DNA of 44,553 bases from positions 1 through 44,553 of the forward strand of contig VHDH01000019.1 of the NCBI GenBank assembly GCA_016871445.1, read 5' to 3'. Both the position numbers and the translations under genes were made by a program. Below the pieces are notes generated by a model. That model ran no database searches. It had not been told where the DNA came from and saw nothing but the letters and a program-made list of their open reading frames with translations. This DNA is from Verrucomicrobiota bacterium (GTDB lineage: Bacteria; Verrucomicrobiota; Verrucomicrobiia; Limisphaerales; SXTU01). This document shows positions 3,250 to 15,597 of the stretch, one piece after another. Numbering within the stretch: position 1 is the first letter of the stretch; every line of letters starts with the position of its first letter.

Positions 3250-3900
3250 ATGTCAGACATTTTTCCCAAGTGGACCAACAAACTGCCTGCGATGGTGATC
3301 GTCGGCGGGTTGGTCGTTGGTGGCGTGGTCACAGCGGGCATCACTTATTACATGACCCCCAAGTATGCGCGCGTCGGTTACAAGCCCGTGCAGCCGGTGG
3401 CCTTCAGTCATGCGATTCATGCTGACCAGCTCGGAATGGACTGCCGTTACTGTCACAACGGCGTGGAGAAATCTTGGTATTCCAACGTCCCCTCGGCCAG
3501 CACTTGCATGAACTGCCACAACCAGGTGCTCAAGGATGATCCCAAGCTCGCACTAGTTCGCGAGTCCGCCGCAACCGGGAAGACTATCCCTTGGGTGCAA
3601 ATCCACAAGACGCCCGACTACGTTTATTTCAACCACTCCGTCCATGTGAATCGTGGTGTTTCTTGCGTACATTGCCACGGCCAAGTCAACAAAATGGAAG
3701 AAGTACGTCACAGCAAGTCGCTGGGCATGGCTTTCTGCCTCGACTGCCATCGTAATCCGGCCGAAAAAATTCGTCCCAACGACCAAGTGTTTAACCTCGA
3801 CTGGCAGGCCCCTGAAGGCTTCGCCAAGAGCGGGGGTGCGAAGCTGGTCAAAGATTGGAACGTGCATCCCGGCGAGAGTTGCTCCGTCTGCCACCGATGA
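3250..3900 (+). CDS. actA: Alternative Complex III pentaheme cytochrome c subunit ActA
   Basis: This 216-residue multiheme protein is the first gene of the operon. A single N-terminal membrane segment (about 14-34) anchors it, and the rest is predicted periplasmic. Five CxxCH heme motifs are visible at residues 65-69, 86-90, 139-143, 163-167 and 211-215, the count expected for ActA. Additional histidines (FSHAIHAD, FNHSVHVN) are typical bis-His axial ligands. In ACIII, ActA receives electrons and passes them along the periplasmic side. Its TGA overlaps the ATG of actB (ATGA), so the two are translationally coupled. A perfect CRP-like palindrome lies just upstream. Confidence 0.93.
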   Translation: MSDIFPKWTNKLPAMVIVGGLVVGGVVTAGITYYMTPKYARVGYKPVQPVAFSHAIHADQLGMDCRYCHNGVEKSWYSNVPSASTCMNCHNQVLKDDPKLALVRESAATGKTIPWVQIHKTPDYVYFNHSVHVNRGVSCVHCHGQVNKMEEVRHSKSLGMAFCLDCHRNPAEKIRPNDQVFNLDWQAPEGFAKSGGAKLVKDWNVHPGESCSVCHR

Positions 3901-6900
3901 AATTTATCCCTCCCGTTTGTCCTGAGCCGGAAATCGGCCCACAATATTTTCGTAGCCCTGAAGCAATGGCGAATTCCGCCCAGCTTCAGGAATGGGCCGA
4001 GCGTGAATTTCCCGCTGGGGCCAGCGAATTGACCGCGGCTGAGTCACGCCGCGACTTCATGAAGCTAATGTCTGCCTCTTTCATGTTGGCGGGCTTTGGC
4101 CTCACTGGATGTCGCCGTCCCACAGAATACATTTACCCCTTTGGCAAGCAGCCCGAGGGTTATATTCACGGCCTTTCACAGCACTTTGCGACTGCAATGC
4201 CCACGCGCACCGGCGCGATTCCGCTCCTCGCCAAGTCCAGCGATGGTCGGCCCACAAAAGTCGAGCCAAACCCGCTGCATCCCGACCAGGCGGGCACAGA
4301 CCAGTTTGCGCAAGCTTCCGTGCTGGGCCTCTACGACCCTGACCGCGCGCAGCATTTCAAGCAGGGCGGAAAAATCGCCAAGCGGGTGGACGCTCTCGAC
4401 GCGCTCGCACAAATTTCCAAGAGTGCGGCAGCCAACGGCGGTCGTGGACTCGCAATCATCGCAGAAAGCAGCAGTTCGCCGACGCGCGCGCGTTTGCAGG
4501 CGGCCATCGCGGCGAAGTTTCCAAACGCGGTCTGGGCTACATATGACGCGGTAGATGCCAGTATTCACGCGCGGGTTGCGAGTCTCGTAACCGGCAGGCA
4601 GGTCGCGCCCTACTTCAAGTTCGATGCGGCCAAGCGCATCCTCTCGCTCGATTGCGATTTTCTTGGCAGCGAAGATGAAATGTATCGCTACACGCGCGAC
4701 TTTGCGAAGGGCCGGAAAATCATCAAGCCAGACACCGCGCAAGGTTTTGAACTCATCAGCCGCCTTTACACAGTCGAGTCGCTGATGACGCTCACGGGCG
4801 GCAACGCCGACCATCGTCTGCGTGTCGCGCCCAGTCAGGTTGCGTCGGTAGCGGCACAGCTCGCTGCGGAAGTGCTCAAGCAATCCGGCAACTCCGCCTC
4901 GCTCAACACCGCCGCGCTAGCGGGCGGAGCGAAGGTGGACGCGAAGTGGGTAATCGAATGCGCGAAGGACCTCGTGGCGCACAAAGGCGCGGCGCTCGTG
5001 GTCGCGGGCCAGCGCCAGCCGCTCGCCGTCCACGCGCTCGCGCACGCGATGAACGAAGTGCTAGGCGCGTTCGGTAAAACGATCCAGTTGCTGGCTGCTC
5101 CGGACCAGCCGGGGACGGGGCAACTATTTGCCACGCCCGGTGTGGAGACGGTCGTGGTTCTGTCCGCAAATCCGGCTTACACGAATTCTGATTACTGGCC
5201 TACCATCACCCGGTCGGCGAAAACCATCATCCGGCTTGGTTGTCACGAGGATGAGACGGCCAAGGATGCGACGTGGCACCTGCCCGCCGCGCACTATCTC
5301 GAATCTTGGGGCGATGCTCGCACCAGCGATGGCACAGTCGTTGCCATTCAGCCGCTTATCGCCCCGCTGTTTGGCGGGCTGACCGAGTGCGAAGTGCTCG
5401 CCCAATTGCTCGGCGATCCGACTGCGAATTCGTACACGCTCACCCGCGAGACATTCGCCGCGCTGACCGGCGGTGCGTTTGATGAGGAAAAGTGGAAGCA
5501 TTTTCTGCACGACGGGTTCCTATCCGGCTCGAAGGCGAAAGCCGTCTCTACCACGTTTGATTGGAATGCGGCCGCGTCGCTTATTGCCGCTTTGGCGGTT
5601 TCCCCCGCGCCGTCCAAGGACAAGCTCGAAGTCATTTTCCACCGCGACGCGAGCGTGGACGACGGGCGTTACACAAACAACGGCTGGCTGCAAGAGTTGC
5701 CCGACCCGATTACCAAGCTCGTTTGGGACAACGCTGTGCTCATTAGCCGCGAGACCGCTACGCAGCTTGGCTTGAAGAACGGCGATGTGATTTCGGTTTC
5801 CGCCAACGGCCGCACAGTCGATGGTGGCATCTGGATTCAGCCCGGCATGGCGGACTTCACGCTCGGTCTCGCGCTCGGCTACGGCCGCAAGTGGGGCCGC
5901 ATCGCGAGCTACGAGGACAAGAGCGTAGGCTTCAACGCCTACCCGCTGCGCTCCGCGAAGGGCGAGGGATTTGTCGGCGGTGCAACCGTCAAGGCCACCG
6001 GCCGCACGCACACTTTCATTTGCACGCAGGACCACTGGACGCTCCATGGCCGCCCGGTCGTGCGCGAGGCGAACTTGGACCAGTTCTTGAAACAGCCCGA
6101 TTTTGCGAAAGGCATGGATCTTGACGGCCACACTGAGTTCCTCGTCAAAAATCCCGATGGATCGATCAAGAACATATATCAGCATCCTTATAAGACCCAC
6201 CCCGAGTTGGCTAGCAAGTCGCACCAGTGGGGCATGGTCGTGGACCTAAACGCCTGCACCGGCTGCTCCGCCTGCGTCATCGCGTGCCAGAGCGAGAACA
6301 ACATTCCCATCGTGGGTAAGGATCAGGTAGCGAAGGGCCGCGAGATGCATTGGCTCCGCATCGACCGCTATTACGCGGCAGATCCGAAGAAGAAAACCCC
6401 GGGCGGGACGCTGGATGCTTTCAAGAGCAACGCCTTAGGCACACCGGGCAACCCAGACACGGTCAACCTGGTTGAGCGCGACGAATTGCAGGCGACGAAA
6501 AAGTGGATTGATGACCCACAGGTCGTGACTCAGCCGATGATGTGTCAGCATTGCGAAAACGCGCCCTGCGAGAGTGTCTGCCCGGTCAATGCTACGGCGC
6601 ATGATGACGAAGGCATCAACGTGATGGCCTACAACCGCTGCGTTGGCACGCGTTATTGCGCCAACAACTGCGCGTGGAAGGTACGTCGGTTCAATTTCTT
6701 CGATTACAACAAGCGCCCCATAGGCGGCGGCAAGTTGGCTCAGGACTGGTTTAAGATGGACGTCGGCCTTTACAAAGGTCCGCTCGGTCGCCGACCCGGC
6801 GACGAAGTTGACATCATCTCGATGGCTCGCAACCCCGACGTGACTGTTCGCATGCGCGGCGTAATGGAAAAGTGCACGTTCTGCCAGCAACGCATCGAGG

Positions 6901-7252
6901 GCGCCAAGATTTCTCAAAAAGTCAGGGCGGGCGCGAGTAACGACGTGGTCGTGAGGGATGGCGCAATTAAAACCGCCTGCCAGCAAGTATGCCCCGCCGA
7001 CGCAATTACCTTTGGCAACACGCTCGACCCTGAGAGCGCGGTGTCCAAGCTCAAAAAGCACGACCGCAACTACACAGTCCTTGGCTTCCTAGACAACAAG
7101 CCCCGCACGACCTACCTCGCGCGCATCCGCAATCTTAATCCCGCCATGCCCGACGCGAAGATCTGGACTATCGAGGAATATCGCCAAGCCTCGGATCCAC
7201 ACTTTATGGCAGAACCGGCGGCTGACGGTGCCAAGAAAGGGGCCAAGCACTA

Positions 7253-7253
<1 letters not shown>
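3897..7253 (+). CDS. actB: Alternative Complex III iron-sulfur subunit ActB (molybdopterin-enzyme-like fusion)
   Basis: ActB here has 1118 residues. It carries a twin-arginine motif (RRDFMK, residues 51-56) and a lipobox-like LTGC (Cys72), so it should be exported folded and possibly lipidated. Residues from about 75 to 770 form the degenerate molybdopterin-oxidoreductase-like domain, which in characterised ACIII carries no Mo cofactor. The C-terminal ferredoxin-like domain begins at Cys787 ([11 protein letters not shown]) and continues with [14 protein letters not shown] from Cys883, [11 protein letters not shown], and CTFCQQR with CQQVCPADA, enough for four FeS clusters. I chose the ATG at 3897 overlapping the actA stop; a TTG at 3855 lies inside actA and is unlikely. 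Confidence 0.93.
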
Positions 7254-8694
<1,441 letters not shown>

Positions 8695-8695
<1 letters not shown>

Positions 8696-9225
8696 TGAAC
8701 GCATACGGTCTCCTCGCCGTCTTCGACACTCCAGCCGACGCGATGCACGCGGCGGAAAAGGTGCGCGACGCCGGCTATTCCAAGTGGGATGTCCACACGC
8801 CGTTCCCCGTACACGGAATGGACGCGGCCATGGGCCTCTCCAACTCGAAGGTCGGCTGGTTCACTTTCCTCGGCGGCGTGACCGGCTACACGTCCGGCAT
8901 GATCATGATTTGGTGGATGAATGCTTACGACTATAAGATCATCATTGGTGGTAAACCAATGTTCAGCCCGTTCTTTAGCTTTCCCGTCAGCTATGAGTTG
9001 ACCATCTTGCTGGCGTCGTTTGGCTCGCTCATCGGCATGTTTCTCCTCAATCGCCTGCCGCGCCTGCATCATCCGCTTTTGAAGAACCGCAAGTTCTCCA
9101 CGGGTGCGTCGCACGACAAGTTCATCCTCGTTATCGAAACGGCCGACCCGAAGTTCAACGACCAAGAAACCCGCAAACTGCTTTCATCCGCTGGCAGTAA
9201 GCACATCGAACTGGTGGAGGACTGA
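8695..9225 (+). CDS. actD: Alternative Complex III subunit ActD (DUF3341)
   Basis: This 176-residue DUF3341 protein starts at the ATG that overlaps the actC stop. The N-terminal part (YGLLAVFDTPADAMHAAEKVRDAGYSKWDVHTPFPVHGMDAAMG) is the characteristic ActD cytoplasmic region. Two transmembrane helices follow at about 60-85 and 100-125, and a short C-terminal tail ends with VETADPKFND. In ACIII, ActD binds next to ActC and ActF on the cytoplasmic side. The frame stays open far upstream inside actC, which is a composition artefact and not an N-terminal extension. Confidence 0.92.
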
Positions 9226-9227
9226 CC

Positions 9228-9872
9228 ATGCGCTACTTCTTTGTCGCTTTGTTCGGCTTTCTGCTCTTAGCACTGACCGTTTTTGGCATTGCTGGCCGGC
9301 GAGGTACAGACTTTCGCAAGCCACCCTTGGAAATCTTCGATGACATGGTGCGACAAGCCAAACTGCGCCCGCAGGTGCCAAACAGTTTTTTCTCCGACGG
9401 CCGCAGCTCGCAGGCATATGTCGTCGGCACCGTCGCCCAGCGTATCGGTGATCAGCCTAATCAAGCTTGGCAAGGTACCGCGCAAAACACTGGCTTGGTG
9501 CCCGGCACCACAAATTATGTTGCAGCCATCCCGGTGCCTGTGACCGCTGCGCTTCTCGAACGGGGACGCGAGCGCTACAATATCTCTTGTGTACCCTGTC
9601 ACGGCCCGGTCGGTGACGGCAATGGCATCACCAAGAAGATTGGCGCGATGCCGGTCGTAGCAAGCCTGCTCGATAAAAACGCCGTCACTATCCCCGACGG
9701 CTTGGTGTTCCACATTATCGGTCAGGGTAAGGCTCCGAACATGCAGGGTTACGCCTCGACCATTCAAATCAATGACCGTTGGGCCATCGTTGCTTACGTC
9801 CGTGCGCTTCAGCGCGCGCGCTATGCAACCTTGGAAGAAGTTCCCGCCGCTGAACGCGCCATGATGAAGTAA
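9228..9872 (+). CDS. actE: Alternative Complex III monoheme cytochrome c subunit ActE
   Basis: This 214-residue protein has one N-terminal membrane helix (about 4-22) and a class I cytochrome c fold. The heme motif is CVPCH at residues 121-125, and a likely axial Met is Met172 in APNMQGYAS, followed by the C-terminal helix RWAIVAYVRALQ. ActE accepts electrons at the periplasmic face and hands them to the downstream acceptor. I see no lipobox cysteine at the end of the signal segment, so it is probably helix-anchored. It starts two bases after the actD stop. Confidence 0.92.
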   Translation: MRYFFVALFGFLLLALTVFGIAGRRGTDFRKPPLEIFDDMVRQAKLRPQVPNSFFSDGRSSQAYVVGTVAQRIGDQPNQAWQGTAQNTGLVPGTTNYVAAIPVPVTAALLERGRERYNISCVPCHGPVGDGNGITKKIGAMPVVASLLDKNAVTIPDGLVFHIIGQGKAPNMQGYASTIQINDRWAIVAYVRALQRARYATLEEVPAAERAMMK

Positions 9873-9876
9873 CGCC

Positions 9877-11166
9877 ATGACCCTCCACGCTTTTCAACTC
9901 TTGATTGGTTTGCGACGCGGTGTAAGTGCAGTCGTGATTGCCCTTTTCGCTGCCGTGCTGCTGGGCAATTCAGCCATCGCTGCTGAGCAAGCCAAAACGG
10001 CGGCTAAAACAGAACAAGCTGTTGACGCTCACCATGGTCACACGCACGGTCCCGCTGGGCATCCCACCGAGCTGAAAAAGTTTGGTTACGCTTACCTCAC
10101 GGCTTACATGTTCTGCCTGAGCCTCTGTTTGGGCGCGCTGTTCATCGTCATCCTCAACCATCTCTTCGACGCGCAGTGGATGGTTCCCATCCGGCGCTTT
10201 CTGGAGCACATTGCCTGCCAGCTGTTCCCCACGATGTTCATCCTTTGGCTGCCGATCGGCTTGCTCGCAAAGGAAATTTATCCTTGGTTTACGATTGATC
10301 CAGACCACGACCATGCGCTTCATGCGAAGGCAATTTTATTTAATCCCACAGCCTTTTATGTGGTATCGGGATTACTGTTTGTGGTTTGGGGCTTTATCGC
10401 CCACGGGTTGCGCCGCGCCTCACTTGCCCAAGATAAGGACGGGGCAGCTGTCCACACCCGCACGATGCGCAAGTACGCCGCCGTCGGCATCTTCGCCTTC
10501 GCCTTCAGCCTGACGGGCGCGGCCATCTACTGGATGAAGTCGCTCCAGCACCAGTTCTTTTCCACCATGTATGGCGTCGTGTACTTCGCCGGCAGCGTGT
10601 GGGTGACGGCAATCACAACTTACTGGCTGCTGCTCTACTTCAAGAATCGCGGCGACCTGAAGGACGTGGCGCGCGAAGTCACGTTCCACGACTGTGGCAA
10701 GCTCTTCTTTGCCTTCACCGTCTTCTACGCCTATATCCACTTCAGCCAATATTTCCTTATCTGGAACGCGGCCGTGCCGGAGGAGACCTTCTGGTATGTT
10801 ACGCGGGAGAAGGGCAGTTGGTGGTGGGTAGGGCAGATTACTATTTTTGGCCACTTCTGGTTCCCGTTCCTATTCCTCCTGCCCATTCATCGCAAAATTA
10901 ACTTCCAGATCATGAGCATGATGGCCGGTTGGGCGTGGTTCTGCCACTACCTCGACCTTCAGTTCAATATTGGCCCAGTGCTGCACCCTGACGGATTGCA
11001 TTTCGGCATTTATGATGTGTTATCGCTGGTCGGGATTCTATCCGTGCTCATCTTCATGTTCAGCCGTGCCTTCAATGCTCACCCGCCCTATCCGCAGCGT
11101 GACCCTCGGGTGGCGGAGACTTTTGGTGTCTATGTTGAACCCGTTTCTAGTAAGCCTGCCCATTAA
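9877..11166 (+). CDS. actF: Alternative Complex III membrane subunit ActF (NrfD/PsrC-like)
   Basis: This 429-residue NrfD/PsrC-like membrane protein is the second integral subunit of ACIII. A hydrophobic N-terminal segment (about 16-36) precedes a His-rich linker (HHGHTHG), then about ten transmembrane segments. Typical blocks include FHDCGKLFFAFTVFYAYIHFSQYFLIW and WWVGQITIFGHFWFPFLFLLPIHRK. It begins four bases after the actE stop. Codon usage inside the gene is mosaic: a block from about 10435 to 10795 is almost exclusively G/C-ending, while both flanks use many A/T-ending codons. Confidence 0.92.
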   Translation: MTLHAFQLLIGLRRGVSAVVIALFAAVLLGNSAIAAEQAKTAAKTEQAVDAHHGHTHGPAGHPTELKKFGYAYLTAYMFCLSLCLGALFIVILNHLFDAQWMVPIRRFLEHIACQLFPTMFILWLPIGLLAKEIYPWFTIDPDHDHALHAKAILFNPTAFYVVSGLLFVVWGFIAHGLRRASLAQDKDGAAVHTRTMRKYAAVGIFAFAFSLTGAAIYWMKSLQHQFFSTMYGVVYFAGSVWVTAITTYWLLLYFKNRGDLKDVAREVTFHDCGKLFFAFTVFYAYIHFSQYFLIWNAAVPEETFWYVTREKGSWWWVGQITIFGHFWFPFLFLLPIHRKINFQIMSMMAGWAWFCHYLDLQFNIGPVLHPDGLHFGIYDVLSLVGILSVLIFMFSRAFNAHPPYPQRDPRVAETFGVYVEPVSSKPAH

Positions 11167-11178
11167 CCCGCATCTACG

Positions 11179-11559
11179 ATGAGCCGCGAAGAATCTCAAG
11201 TCGCCCAGCACAATTCCTCTTTGCGCTCCAAGATCGCTTACTTTGTTGGCGCAATCGTGATCACCCTGCTTGGCCTTGGTATCAATACGATGCTCAAGAA
11301 CTATACCGAGACCGGGGCGCAAGCTGCGCGTGAGGCCCGCGCAAATGAGCGCACCAAGGCGCACGCTGAGCTGCGGCAAGTCGCCGCGCAAGAGTTGTCC
11401 TCCGCCGCGGTGCTTGATAAATCCAAGGGCATTTATCGCATCCCCGTCAATGCCGCTATGGAACTAACCATGAAGGAATACCAGCGAGACGCGGCCGCCG
11501 CTCGTGCAGGTTTTGTTAAGCGCGTCGAGGACTGGGCCAAGCCACCGAGCTTCGAGTGA
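11179..11559 (+). CDS. Small conserved membrane-anchored protein of the ACIII operon
   Basis: This 126-residue protein has one N-terminal membrane segment (residues 17-39) and a charged, probably helical periplasmic part (about 45-70). A short conserved motif, KGIYRIPVNAAMELTMKEYQRD, lies near residues 85-106. The motif type 'D+xKGIxRIPIDxAMEL' recurs in small proteins encoded beside ACIII and oxidase genes in several phyla, so it is likely an accessory of the respiratory complex; I know no biochemical function. It lies 12 bases after actF and 77 bases before the oxidase-like gene. Confidence 0.7.
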   Translation: MSREESQVAQHNSSLRSKIAYFVGAIVITLLGLGINTMLKNYTETGAQAAREARANERTKAHAELRQVAAQELSSAAVLDKSKGIYRIPVNAAMELTMKEYQRDAAAARAGFVKRVEDWAKPPSFE

Positions 11560-11636: not shown

Positions 11637-13085
11637 ATGACGATCACGCAATCTAGCAGCCAATCTGCCTACTCCTCCGCGCCCACTGCTGCGCAGGTTG
11701 AGTCGGCATGTCGGTTCCCAGTGTTATTTCTCGCCTTTAGCGGTGGGGCTTGGCTATTTGCTGGTCTAACATTGGCGGCACTTGCGAGCGTCCAGCTTTA
11801 TAACCCAACCTTTCTTGAGGGTTGCCCGTGGGTTACTTACGGTCGGCTCCGCCCTGCTGCAGTTAACGCTCTGACTTATGGTTTCGCGCTGCAATCCGCC
11901 TTTGCTCTTGCGCTTTGGTTTATTGCTCGCCTCGGTAGAGTTGAGTTGTCCTCCCCGCTTGGCCTAGCGGTGGCCGCAAAGTTCTGGAACGTCGGCGTCA
12001 CCGTTGGCGTGCTGGGGATCCTAGCGGGCGACGCCTCTGGGCATGATCTGTTGGAGTTTCCGCTCTACGCCTCATTGCCGTTGATCGCCAGTTACGTGTG
12101 TATCGCGGCGTGGGCACTTTTGGCCTTACATCGGCGCGCGGAGCGTGAAATGTATGTCTCCCTTTGGTTTGTAGGCGCAGGATTGCTTTGGTTCCCGTGG
12201 ATTTTCGCCACGGCACAAAGTCTGTTGTTAGGTTGGCAGGTCACTGGCGTTGTGCAGGCGGTCGTCGCTGGCTGGTTCGGCCAAAACTTGCTGCAAATCG
12301 TCCTAACCGGCTCCGCGCTGGCGGTGCTGTTCTACTTCGTACCCAAGATAGTGAACCGCCCGCTTGCCAATCCCGGCCTCACCCGTGCCGGCTTCTGGTT
12401 GTTATTGCTTATCGGCGGCTGGGGCGGCCTCGCACAACTCGCGTCGGTGCCTGCATGGATTCCTGCCGTCAGCGGTGCGGCCAACTTTCTCGTCCTTGTG
12501 CCTGTGGCATCGTTGCTCGTATCGCTCTGGCAGACAGTTGACGGCAAAGTTGTCGAGGCATGGAGGGCAAACGTCACTTTTCGCTTTCTGCTCGTTGCTG
12601 CTGGGCTCTTGTTGCTCAGCGTTTTGAGGACCGCTTTCTTAGGCGGCCAATCGACCCAATACACCTTTTTCGCCACGGCGCGCACGGATATCGTGCTACT
12701 CGGAGTCTTCGGACTTTCTGCCCTTGGGGCGTTGCTTCACATCGTACCGCGCCTCACCACTGGCGAAGATGAGTTGCCTTCCGTCGGCTTGACTGACCTA
12801 GTTTTCTGGACATCTTTATTAGGGGTAGTTGGCGTCGCTGCCGGCTATAGCCTCGCAGGCCTGGTTCAAGCTGATGTAAACATGAACGTTACTAGGGACT
12901 TTTTAAAGGATGGAATTGTCGCTTCCGCGGAGCGATGGATGGAATTGAATTTGTCGGCCTTCGGCTATCTCAAGCTTGTTACCGCCGGTTACGCGGCATT
13001 AACCGTCGCAGCGCTCGCCTTCCTCGCGAACTTCGGTCTTGCGGTCCGCCGCTGCTTCGTCGCCTGCTGTGGAGGTGCTCGGTGA
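11637..13085 (+). CDS. cbb3-type oxidase subunit I (CcoN) homologue lacking the heme and copper ligands
   Basis: This 482-residue, roughly 12-helix protein is recognisable as a CcoN homologue by anchors such as YGRLRPAAVNAL (68-79), GWFGQNLLQ (212-220), LFYFVPK (231-237), FWLLLLIGGWGGLAQL (253-268) and LGALLHIVPRL (363-373). Aligned by eye with canonical CcoN, the ligands change as follows: RLRPxH becomes Ala75, WxGHN becomes Gln216, the HH pair becomes Ala266-Gln267, and GHVHSG becomes Arg349 and Asp351. The helix-VII tyrosine is Gly260. Only three histidines remain (136, 165, 368), none at a ligand position. It should therefore bind neither heme b, b3 nor CuB in the normal way. Genes before and after it are ACIII subunits and cytochromes. 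Confidence 0.85.
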   Translation: MTITQSSSQSAYSSAPTAAQVESACRFPVLFLAFSGGAWLFAGLTLAALASVQLYNPTFLEGCPWVTYGRLRPAAVNALTYGFALQSAFALALWFIARLGRVELSSPLGLAVAAKFWNVGVTVGVLGILAGDASGHDLLEFPLYASLPLIASYVCIAAWALLALHRRAEREMYVSLWFVGAGLLWFPWIFATAQSLLLGWQVTGVVQAVVAGWFGQNLLQIVLTGSALAVLFYFVPKIVNRPLANPGLTRAGFWLLLLIGGWGGLAQLASVPAWIPAVSGAANFLVLVPVASLLVSLWQTVDGKVVEAWRANVTFRFLLVAAGLLLLSVLRTAFLGGQSTQYTFFATARTDIVLLGVFGLSALGALLHIVPRLTTGEDELPSVGLTDLVFWTSLLGVVGVAAGYSLAGLVQADVNMNVTRDFLKDGIVASAERWMELNLSAFGYLKLVTAGYAALTVAALAFLANFGLAVRRCFVACCGGAR

Positions 13086-14188
13086 GATACGGCCCTCTTC
13101 TCGGAGCAGGCGCATTGTTCTCGTTAGTCTGCTCATGGGCCGCGCTAATCATGGCCCCGCAACTCCAACTCGGTGCGTTGGCCCCGGGCCCGCTCCCTAA
13201 TTCCACCGAGGTTTACCCGCCGACCCGGCCTGGTCTCGCCGCGCAGGGCGCGGAAGTATATCGCTCGCTGGGCTGTGCCCAGTGCCATACGCGCGCGGTG
13301 CGCCAAACTCAGGCGCTATATGGCGCACGGCTGAACGAAGTGGGTAATTCGCCTAACACTCTTCTGCTCCCGGGCCTCGGCGGGTCGGACCCAAAGCCTG
13401 TTAACCTCGATCTCCTCCTCGCGCTTGCGACCATCCGGCCTGACCTTACCATCGCGCCACTGCCCCTGCCGCCAGCGCTGGTAGGCGATACCAACATCGT
13501 CGCCCGGCTGAAGCAGTTCGCGGACAATGTCGCGCTGCTCAAACGCAACGATACAAAGGTAGGCATCAACCGGCCCACCAGCGGTCCGTCGGTCAACGAC
13601 CTGGCTGGTAAGTTGCCCGCTGCAGTTTTTGAGCGGGTCAGTATCGAAGCCGGTGAACGCGCGGTGAAATACCTCTCCGACGCTGGCGCAAAAGCTGAAC
13701 TAACATTTTACAACCTTGGTCCGGACATTGAACGTGGCTGGGGCGCGCGCCGCACCGTGGCGCAGGATTACGTGAACGACTCGCCCGTGTTGCTGGGCAG
13801 CGTGCGCGTTGGGCCAGACCTCGCGAGCCTCGCCACGCGCGCGCCGGAGAAGTTTGCCGCGCCGTGGAAATTCGCCTCGACCAACACGGCGGCAGAGTTC
13901 GAACGTCATCTGTTGGTTCACCTTTATAATCCGCGCGTGTTGGCGAAAGATAGCACCTGTCCGTCGGCCGGCTACCTCTTCAATAAGCAAAAGCCAGAAA
14001 TCCGGGCCGCTGGAGAACCTCTGACGGTGCCCGGCACAGACGCACCTGTCTTCCCTAAACATGAAGCCCGTGCCCTCGTCGCCTACCTGCTGACTCAGCG
14101 CGTGGATACCGGTGTGGCTGAGGCCCCGGTACCCTCGGCTCCCAAGGCCGTGCCTGCCGCCGCGCCGAAAGCACCCATGAAACCATGA
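13082..14188 (+). CDS. CcoO-like membrane cytochrome c with enlarged middle region
   Basis: This 368-residue protein starts at GTG 13082. The start overlaps the previous stop (GTGA) and has a clear GGAGG six bases upstream. An N-terminal helix (about 6-27) anchors it. The heme motif CAQCH spans residues 65-69 after GAEVYRSLG, as in CcoO. About 150 residues are inserted before the CcoO-like block SPVLLGSVRVGPDLA and the motif STCPSAGYLF. In ordinary CcoO the last motif is SxMPxY and its Met is the axial heme ligand; here that position is Cys293. The C-terminus is Ala/Pro-rich. It is probably the partner of the CcoN-like protein and an electron carrier for ACIII. Confidence 0.82.
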   Translation: MRYGPLLGAGALFSLVCSWAALIMAPQLQLGALAPGPLPNSTEVYPPTRPGLAAQGAEVYRSLGCAQCHTRAVRQTQALYGARLNEVGNSPNTLLLPGLGGSDPKPVNLDLLLALATIRPDLTIAPLPLPPALVGDTNIVARLKQFADNVALLKRNDTKVGINRPTSGPSVNDLAGKLPAAVFERVSIEAGERAVKYLSDAGAKAELTFYNLGPDIERGWGARRTVAQDYVNDSPVLLGSVRVGPDLASLATRAPEKFAAPWKFASTNTAAEFERHLLVHLYNPRVLAKDSTCPSAGYLFNKQKPEIRAAGEPLTVPGTDAPVFPKHEARALVAYLLTQRVDTGVAEAPVPSAPKAVPAAAPKAPMKP

Positions 14189-14796
14189 GCCAGAACAAGC
14201 CCAAGCCCTCGCTGCAAAATAGAGATGCTGAGCCGACCGTCGCCGCTGGCGGCGGAGTTGCTTGGCCATTCGTCATGCTTGGGGTGGTGCTGTTCGGTTG
14301 TTTCCTCCATGTGGAAAACTCCGGTGGCGCTTTTCGGGCCGATGTATATCAGTCTGGGGTGAAGCTCCCGCCGCCAATGCCCAATGAGCCGGAGGAAGTG
14401 AAGCTCTACAAGACCGGGGCGCAGCTCTACGCCGCTTGTGCGGGTTGCCACCAGCCCAGCGGAATAGGTTCAGAGGCACTCAATTTTCCGCCATTGGCCG
14501 GCTCCGAGTGGGTCATGCGTGAAAAACCTGACCGCCTCGTTCGCATTATCTTGGACGCCGTAGAGGGCCCAATCAGTGTCAAGGGTAAGACTTATGATAA
14601 CGCCGCGATGCCGCCTTTCCGCGGCGCGTTGAACGAACGCCAGATTGCCGCCATCGCCACTTACATTCGGGGTAACAAAGATTGGGGTAACAGTGCGTCC
14701 TACGTCACGCCTGCGCAGGTAAAGGCCATTACGGATGCCACGGCGAAGAACGCTGGCACCAAGTGGCGCGCGACCTTGCTGGAAGCTGTGCCTTGA
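14185..14796 (+). CDS. Membrane-anchored monoheme cytochrome c
   Basis: This 203-residue class I cytochrome c overlaps the preceding stop by four bases (ATGA). One membrane helix lies at about residues 27-43, followed by a cytochrome domain with CAGCH at 85-89 and a likely axial Met142 in AAMPPF. The heme domain resembles the c-type domains that accompany terminal oxidases (CcoP-like or CoxB-fused domains), but only one heme is present and no CcoP tandem arrangement is seen. As the last gene of the operon it could carry electrons from ACIII to an oxidase encoded elsewhere. Confidence 0.85.
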   Translation: MSQNKPKPSLQNRDAEPTVAAGGGVAWPFVMLGVVLFGCFLHVENSGGAFRADVYQSGVKLPPPMPNEPEEVKLYKTGAQLYAACAGCHQPSGIGSEALNFPPLAGSEWVMREKPDRLVRIILDAVEGPISVKGKTYDNAAMPPFRGALNERQIAAIATYIRGNKDWGNSASYVTPAQVKAITDATAKNAGTKWRATLLEAVP

Positions 14797-14886: not shown

Positions 14887-15597
14887 TCACTGTTTAAATT
14901 CCAGAATAATGCCGTTGGTGCCCGTCCGGTTGAAGCTGTCCGTGTGCCCGTCCATGTAGCCGGCGATGGCGCGTCCGTCGGGAAAGCGCGTGCCGTGACG
15001 GTAACCAACGTGGTTCGTGGATAGGTTCTCGATCGGCGGGTGATTGCGGCGGTAGGAAAGGTCTCCCACGAGATAAGTGCTGACGGGCTGGTTTACCTGT
15101 GCGCGACGAGCCGTGGTGACGAAATCTCCGGCAGTGACTGGCGCGCCATTAACAAAGTTCAGCGACGTGTGCTGGTTCATGCCGTAGCTGATGCGCCATG
15201 GGTTACCGGTTCCAGGGTATTCGGGGCTGGTGGCGTTGAACCATTCCTTTTGCCGGTCTGGGCAGCGCGAGAGTGAGTTGGTCCAGCTCGTCCCCTGCTG
15301 TGCGGAGTTGAACGCCTGCCCGCGAAAGTAGGGCGAGAGCAAAAAATCAAAGCTGTTATTCATTGTGTGCAACCGGCTCCATGCGTAGGGCAGCTTGTCA
15401 TCCTGATCATCGCAGTAGAGGTGAGTGACCATCGCCCACTGCTTGGTGCTGTTCGTGCAGAAGGTCTGGTTGGCCTTCGCCTTGGCCTTGCTCAAGGCGG
15501 GCAGCAGCATCCCCGCGAGGATCGCGATGATAGCGATGACGACGAGCAACTCAATGAGGGTAAAGGCGTCGCCACCAGGACGTGAACTAGGTTTCAT
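14887..15597 (-). CDS. Type II secretion/prepilin-like protein with N-terminal methylation motif
   Basis: This 236-residue pseudopilin-like protein is of the type abundant in Verrucomicrobia and Planctomycetes. Residues 9-33 carry the cleavage/methylation signal (AFTLIELLVVIAIIAILAGM) followed by LLPALSKAKAKAN. A C-terminal H-X9-DG type motif is present in YRHGTRFPDGRAIAGYMDGH, close to the end. Such proteins are processed by prepilin peptidase and assembled at or exported through the inner membrane; the role is mostly unknown and families are heavily amplified. It converges with the cytochrome operon, leaving a 90-base gap without an obvious T-tailed terminator. Confidence 0.85.
   Translation of the reverse strand: MKPSSRPGGDAFTLIELLVVIAIIAILAGMLLPALSKAKAKANQTFCTNSTKQWAMVTHLYCDDQDDKLPYAWSRLHTMNNSFDFLLSPYFRGQAFNSAQQGTSWTNSLSRCPDRQKEWFNATSPEYPGTGNPWRISYGMNQHTSLNFVNGAPVTAGDFVTTARRAQVNQPVSTYLVGDLSYRRNHPPIENLSTNHVGYRHGTRFPDGRAIAGYMDGHTDSFNRTGTNGIILEFKQ

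Follow-up and report, generated by a model that had tools for sequence, protein, structure and literature searches.

The window, a 44,553-nucleotide stretch of a Verrucomicrobiota contig (VHDH01000019.1), encodes a CcoN-like protein that is predicted to be incapable of binding heme b, heme b3, or CuB through any known set of ligands. We regard it with moderate confidence as a pseudo-oxidase subunit that is free of cofactors and belongs to an ACIII-CcoNOP complex, where it would anchor CcoO and CcoP, with the electrons going to a separate oxidase. Its reading frame (ATG start, 482 aa) is intact and contains exactly three histidines (H136, H165, and H368), of which H165 alone is conserved in most of the window's genus. 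The protein matched COX1 (Pfam) at 4.8e-27 and TIGR00780 (ccoN) at 5e-30, with 105 bits against an equivalog cut-off of 583 bits; because the intact ACIII-linked CcoN of genome G127 also fell short (224 bits), this cut-off alone is no marker of the dead form. The best PDB sequence matches were CcoN chains of cbb3 oxidases; overall identity to CcoN is low, at 22–25%. Mapping by phmmer, MAFFT, and hhalign (with a 48-row family profile) was concordant in all three methods and, with the Pseudomonas stutzeri numbering checked, placed A75, Q216, G260, A266, Q267, R349, and D351 at H60, H207, Y251, H257, H258, H345, and H347, respectively. Orthologues from the same genus (66–77% identical) also lack these ligand residues, indicating that the absences are not due to chance.

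An AlphaFold2 model built from the 48-row alignment (pLDDT 92.5, pTM 0.92) found its best Foldseek matches in CcoN structures (TM 0.84/0.87) and superposed on P. stutzeri CcoN by VIA-align with a Z of 48.1 (1.9 Å, 441 residues). Both structural programs yield aligned ranges instead of residue pairs, so the residue mapping depends on the three sequence alignments. The modeled fold is thus that of CcoN, even though the metal sites are predicted to be gone; by fold and homology the protein belongs with the C-type heme-copper oxygen reductases, and it lacks their heme b and b3 histidines, CuB histidines, and Tyr251. These data bear out the sequence-only reading, which had described a CcoN homologue with all six ligand histidines and the helix-VII tyrosine substituted, counted three histidines in an intact frame overlapping its neighbour, and excluded normal O2 reduction; the structural alignment and fold prediction it had proposed recovered the CcoN fold, and the sequence alignments put no histidine at any ligand site.

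In the window, the genes are ordered ActA, ActB, ActC, ActD, ActE, ActF, a 126-residue membrane protein (orf126), CcoN, CcoO, and CcoP (Table 1), which is the gene order of the ACIII-linked CcoNOP of Verrucomicrobiia. Five heme c motifs were read in ActA and one each in ActE, CcoO, and CcoP. The start of the ActB-like frame was set at the ATG at 3897, and the CcoN and CcoO frames share four bases (GTG at 13082, TGA at 13083–13085). The uncharacterised orf126 product, which contains the stretch GIYRIPVNAAMEL and is conserved between ActF and CcoN, had no family match in Pfam/TIGR-type profile searches. Directly downstream of the operon, a type IV prepilin-like protein is encoded on the opposite strand (14887–15597, −).

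Table 1. Features of the ACIII-CcoNOP operon in the window, with the basis for each assignment.
Feature	Position	Strand	Basis
ActA-like pentaheme cytochrome c	3250..3900	+	Five CxxCH; homologues at the same place also with five CxxCH
ActB-like fused MopB-type/iron-sulfur subunit	3897..7253	+	TIGR04519, QrcB/QrcC, and DsrO-like matches
ActC-like NrfD membrane subunit	7253..8695	+	PF03916, 2e-20
ActD-like subunit	8695..9225	+	Position and conservation
ActE-like monoheme cytochrome c	9228..9872	+	PF13442, 2e-9
ActF-like membrane subunit	9877..11166	+	No Pfam match; position, slot kept in most loci
Small membrane protein, 126 aa (orf126)	11179..11559	+	Between ActF and CcoN in most loci
Predicted CcoN-like pseudo-oxidase subunit without heme/copper ligands	11637..13085	+	Alignments, AlphaFold2 model
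Ala75, low-spin heme b ligand site (His60)	11859..11861	+	Three alignments
Gln216, CuB ligand site (His207)	12282..12284	+	Three alignments
Gly260, helix-VII Tyr251 site	12414..12416	+	Three alignments
Ala266-Gln267, CuB ligand sites (His257-His258)	12432..12437	+	Three alignments
Arg349, heme b3 ligand site (His345)	12681..12683	+	Three alignments
Asp351, low-spin heme b ligand site (His347)	12687..12689	+	Three alignments
Cys-rich C-terminal tail of CcoN, CFVACC	13053..13070	+	CC pair near the C-terminus in 28/84 ligand-deficient and 0/28 intact rows
CcoO-like monoheme cytochrome c subunit	13082..14188	+	PF02433, 7e-8; GTG start overlaps CcoN stop
CcoO heme c motif, CAQCH	13274..13288	+	Motif read; kept in aligned relatives
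Cys at predicted distal heme ligand position of CcoO	13958..13960	+	Met in all 51 intact-type rows
CcoP-like monoheme cytochrome c subunit	14185..14796	+	PF00034, 7e-13
CcoP heme c motif, CAGCH	14437..14451	+	Motif read; kept in aligned relatives

An orthologue of the CcoN-like protein was present in 36 of the 39 relatives searched, and class-wide and named-genome searches yielded about 130 loci. The order ActABCDEF-(orf126)-CcoN-CcoO-CcoP was identical in intact and ligand-less loci across Verrucomicrobiia. Most loci come from metagenome assemblies, but several of the deciding genomes (G081, G111, G191, G127, and G305) are single contigs. When 112 non-redundant ACIII-linked CcoN rows were scored at seven sites (six His plus Tyr), all seven residues were retained in 28 rows and no complete site in 77, with one row unscorable. 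The remaining rows were intermediates: the ligands of heme b and heme b3 kept with those of CuB and the Tyr lost (2/112; L111 and L128), only the low-spin heme ligands His60 and His347 kept (2/112; L140 and L149, both of family f35), or only the heme b3 His kept (2/112). The first two, from Opitutaceae (L111:6186-8030 and L128:4572-6146), have His60, His207, His345, and His347 and lack the Tyr plus at least one of the two remaining CuB histidines, and judging from these residues their CcoN is possibly a heme-b wire without CuB. The search for homologues with the same ligand losses beside actABCDEF, also proposed at the outset, thus uncovered a class-wide family that includes intact members. 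One genome (G047) has an ActB match and no CcoN match, which shows that ACIII as such does not depend on CcoN. The CcoN of L056, L058, L069, and L080 grouped with Pedosphaera-like Verrucomicrobiota, and the corresponding records, titled Akkermansia muciniphila or Klebsiella pneumoniae, are probably mislabelled.

Stand-alone CcoN(O) served to root a maximum-likelihood tree in which the ACIII-linked rows, window included, grouped together apart from the stand-alone proteins (100/100), and the ligand-deficient rows were scattered instead of forming one group. The "lost" state corresponded to four changes on this tree, with the CuB-less pair and the low-spin-only pair as separate changes, and two ligand-less groups (L106/L139 and L090/L110/L125/L137/L151/L171) were nested in ligand-complete lineages. 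Constraining all deficient rows together was rejected by the AU test (p 9.4e-5), none of the bootstrap trees (0%) united the "lost" rows, and a single ancestral loss was ruled out by the AU test and the tree. Deficient rows have long branches and diverge more deeply than intact members, and two trees disagree on the placement of the L090-containing group, making the exact number of losses uncertain; the starred branches require at least three changes to the "lost" state. The phylogeny indicates that the ligands have been lost more than once in ACIII-linked CcoN.

The gene itself is under purifying selection. Pairwise dN/dS comparisons among eight genomes from the window's genus gave a median for CcoN (0.153) similar to that of ActF (0.156), against 0.103 for ActC and 0.132 for ActB. 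A decaying pseudogene, which had been doubted from the sequence alone, was ruled out by this ratio together with the retention of the operon across the class. The repeated loss of ligands from a gene under strong selection makes a structural piece of a respiratory complex probable, and the structural role linked to ACIII that had been suggested earlier is the one that fits best, given that fold, operon, and selection are all kept; its docking component is suggested by gene order, which points to a physical association of CcoNOP with ACIII, as would be consistent with the supercomplex of ACIII and an oxidase that is already known (PMC8361435).

The partner subunits keep their heme c motifs. The CxxCH motifs of CcoO and CcoP were present in every aligned row, and the predicted ligand Met of CcoP was found in 99% of the ligand-deficient loci. 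The predicted distal Met of CcoO occurred in 51/51 intact-type rows and 69/84 deficient rows; throughout the window's genus, as well as in L037 and L108, this position is Cys. By general heme chemistry, a Met-to-Cys ligand change could lower the potential of that heme, so a simple forward relay is less certain in the window's genus. We infer an electron path and an anchoring role for CcoN as follows. Ancestrally, ACIII and cbb3 most likely formed a supercomplex with its own O2-reducing activity. Another oxidase would then have taken over and the O2 site of CcoN would have decayed, perhaps stepwise, with CuB and the Tyr lost while the hemes were kept, then the low-spin heme alone retained, and finally none; these proposed stages are seen in different lineages. 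The body of CcoN may have been retained for its part in keeping the cytochromes CcoO and CcoP attached to ACIII. In the present complex, ACIII-CcoNOP would still assemble, with the dead CcoN anchoring CcoO and CcoP in the membrane and offering them a docking platform; ACIII would oxidise menaquinol and pass electrons via ActA and ActE to CcoO and CcoP, from which they would exit to a separate oxidase (probably the A-type enzyme of contig C68 in the window genome), bypassing any heme b or CuB center.

The window genome (G000) has one A-type oxidase, on the separate contig C68, where CoxC and a heme O synthase-like gene of the UbiA family also lie. The same genome also contains a weak COX1 match (L003; G000:C26:15777-16301; 22.8 bits) with three internal stops. 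Another heme-copper oxidase was present in all 24 genomes verified as ligand-deficient, and two genomes with an intact ACIII-linked CcoN (G040 and G185, 98–99% complete) had no further PF00115 gene. This distribution matches the expectation if intact copies work as oxidases and deficient ones do not; since most genomes with intact CcoN also have additional oxidases, it serves as supporting evidence only. CcoG, considered as a marker of a living cbb3 oxidase, proved uninformative: it occurs with stand-alone CcoNO and is absent even where an intact ACIII-linked copy is the sole heme-copper oxidase. A tentative alternative, less probable than a separate oxidase, is that the dead CcoN bridges ACIII and an A-type (aa3) oxidase within one supercomplex in which CcoO and CcoP wire electrons to CuA. 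In Methylacidiphilaceae, G105, and G320, the gene immediately after ligand-less CcoNOP is an A-type CoxA, mostly accompanied by CoxC, and CoxA also adjoins an intact CcoNOP in G297; moreover, a supercomplex of ACIII and cytochrome oxidase is known from Flavobacterium johnsoniae (PMC8361435). However, the A-type oxidase of the window genome is on another contig, and most ligand-less loci had no CoxA within the flanking sequence covered.

In four pmoA-positive genomes of the methane-oxidising Methylacidiphilum type, all of one genus (G081, G093, G111, and G191; 2.2–2.5 Mb), CoxA and CoxC directly follow the ligand-less CcoNOP. Their ACIII-linked CcoN has S, E, S, S, H, F, and V at the seven sites and contained five to six histidines in the two full sequences read, and the ccoN model detected no other C-type oxidase in these genomes (best scores <30 bits). 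From these residues, CcoN at this locus is predicted to be unable to hold heme b, heme b3, or CuB in the manner of known oxidases. The ACIII genes and CcoN of G111 are separated by a nos gene set that includes a NosZ-like protein of 660 aa, an arrangement that has been reported, with adjoining "aa3-type and cbb3-type" genes, for Methylacidiphilum caldifontis IT6 (PMC11102522). At locus L173:8400-15084, in a pmoA-positive genome, the genes between ACIII and CcoN-CcoO-CcoP-CoxA are NosZ, NosD, NosF, and NosY-like. The Kam1 genome paper placed a cbb3 oxidase with ACIII and linked this enzyme to a high affinity for oxygen (PMC6688271); three types of oxidase are again given for Methylacidiphilum in later papers (PMC8498564, PMC10205796). 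The published cbb3 and high-affinity claim would be affected by the lack of metal-holding residues in the ACIII-adjacent CcoN of the four pmoA-positive genomes, and counting ccoN-like genes as high-affinity oxidases will produce an overcount in Verrucomicrobiota. It is conceivable, although we hold it with low confidence, that on several independent occasions the heme-copper oxidase core became a structural, metal-free subunit of a quinol-oxidising complex, including in Methylacidiphilum as the ACIII-aa3 bridge of a three-part supercomplex, with CuB-first and low-spin-only intermediates surviving.

Residues conserved in intact and deficient groups alike include G69, R70, W94, R98, E140, W177, P187, W188, W213, P236, P272, W274, and P371, and those invariant in intact members and free in deficient ones include, besides the ligands, R72, Y232, S249, Y325, H341, and G353. 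Polar residues near the active site of intact relatives are replaced in the window protein (Tyr251 by G260, Y325 by L325, T326 by L326, and S329 by V329), and those charged residues that the ligand-less group still conserves are confined to loops and the ends of helices. A proton-channel-like role, which had also been proposed, is not supported by these data, as no conserved buried charge was found. It is improbable that the emptied CcoN has instead acquired a new role, catalytic or sensory, by binding another cofactor or small molecule (a quinone, a lipid, or, at the Cys-rich tail, a metal). The small residues at lost sites (H60 to A, Y251 to G), a feature of the His60 and Tyr251 sites in most rows, could leave cavities for another ligand, and a CC pair in the final 45 aa was restricted to ligand-deficient members (28/84, against 0/28 intact rows). 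However, two thirds of the clade have no such tail, and no buried site carries a potential metal ligand that is invariant clade-wide; at the best His columns, 55 and 389, the window protein has Tyr and Val.

Very unlikely is an evolutionary relic of little function that hitch-hikes in an essential operon: the deep divergence and long branches of the deficient rows would agree with it, but the dN/dS of about 0.15, frames open in nearly all copies, and retention in nearly all relatives speak against it. A misleading alignment, with ligands elsewhere and CcoN a working oxidase, can be practically dismissed despite the low overall identity to CcoN, as three histidines cannot supply the six required, the three methods agree, and the motifs flanking each site are retained, which ruled out misalignment at the sequence level.

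Our literature search for ligand-less oxidase subunits, which reached few subscription journals, found no report, and we know of no described heme-copper oxidase homologue that is without every redox center and yet conserved as a respiratory-chain gene. With orthologues that are intact, partly degraded, and fully degraded sharing one operon context, this family opens the conversion of a catalytic membrane enzyme into a scaffold to study. ActB of ACIII has a molybdopterin-oxidoreductase fold without molybdopterin, and it resembles the window CcoN in keeping a redox-enzyme fold without the cofactor in what is probably the same complex, although it belongs to another protein family. With the cbb3 CcoNOP of P. 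stutzeri (3mk7), the window proteins share the CcoN fold (Z 48), the N-O-P gene order, and the heme c motifs of CcoO and CcoP, whereas the window CcoN lacks the heme b, b3, and CuB ligands and the helix-VII Tyr, CcoP carries a single heme motif where two are usual, and the genes lie inside an ACIII operon. A C-type oxidase next to ACIII is how the ACIII-linked CcoNOP of Verrucomicrobiia, Opitutales among them, has been described (Refojo et al. 2010, as cited in PMC8498564); it has the same operon with orthologous genes and falls in the same clade. Many of its members keep all seven ligand residues, whereas the window's clade has lost them. The ACIII-adjacent "cbb3-type oxidase" of Methylacidiphilum (PMC6688271, PMC8498564, PMC11102522) is an orthologous locus that is ligand-deficient too (S E S S H F V), but it differs from the window in occupying a separate branch of the tree, in being followed by CoxA and CoxC, and in being treated as an oxidase in the literature.
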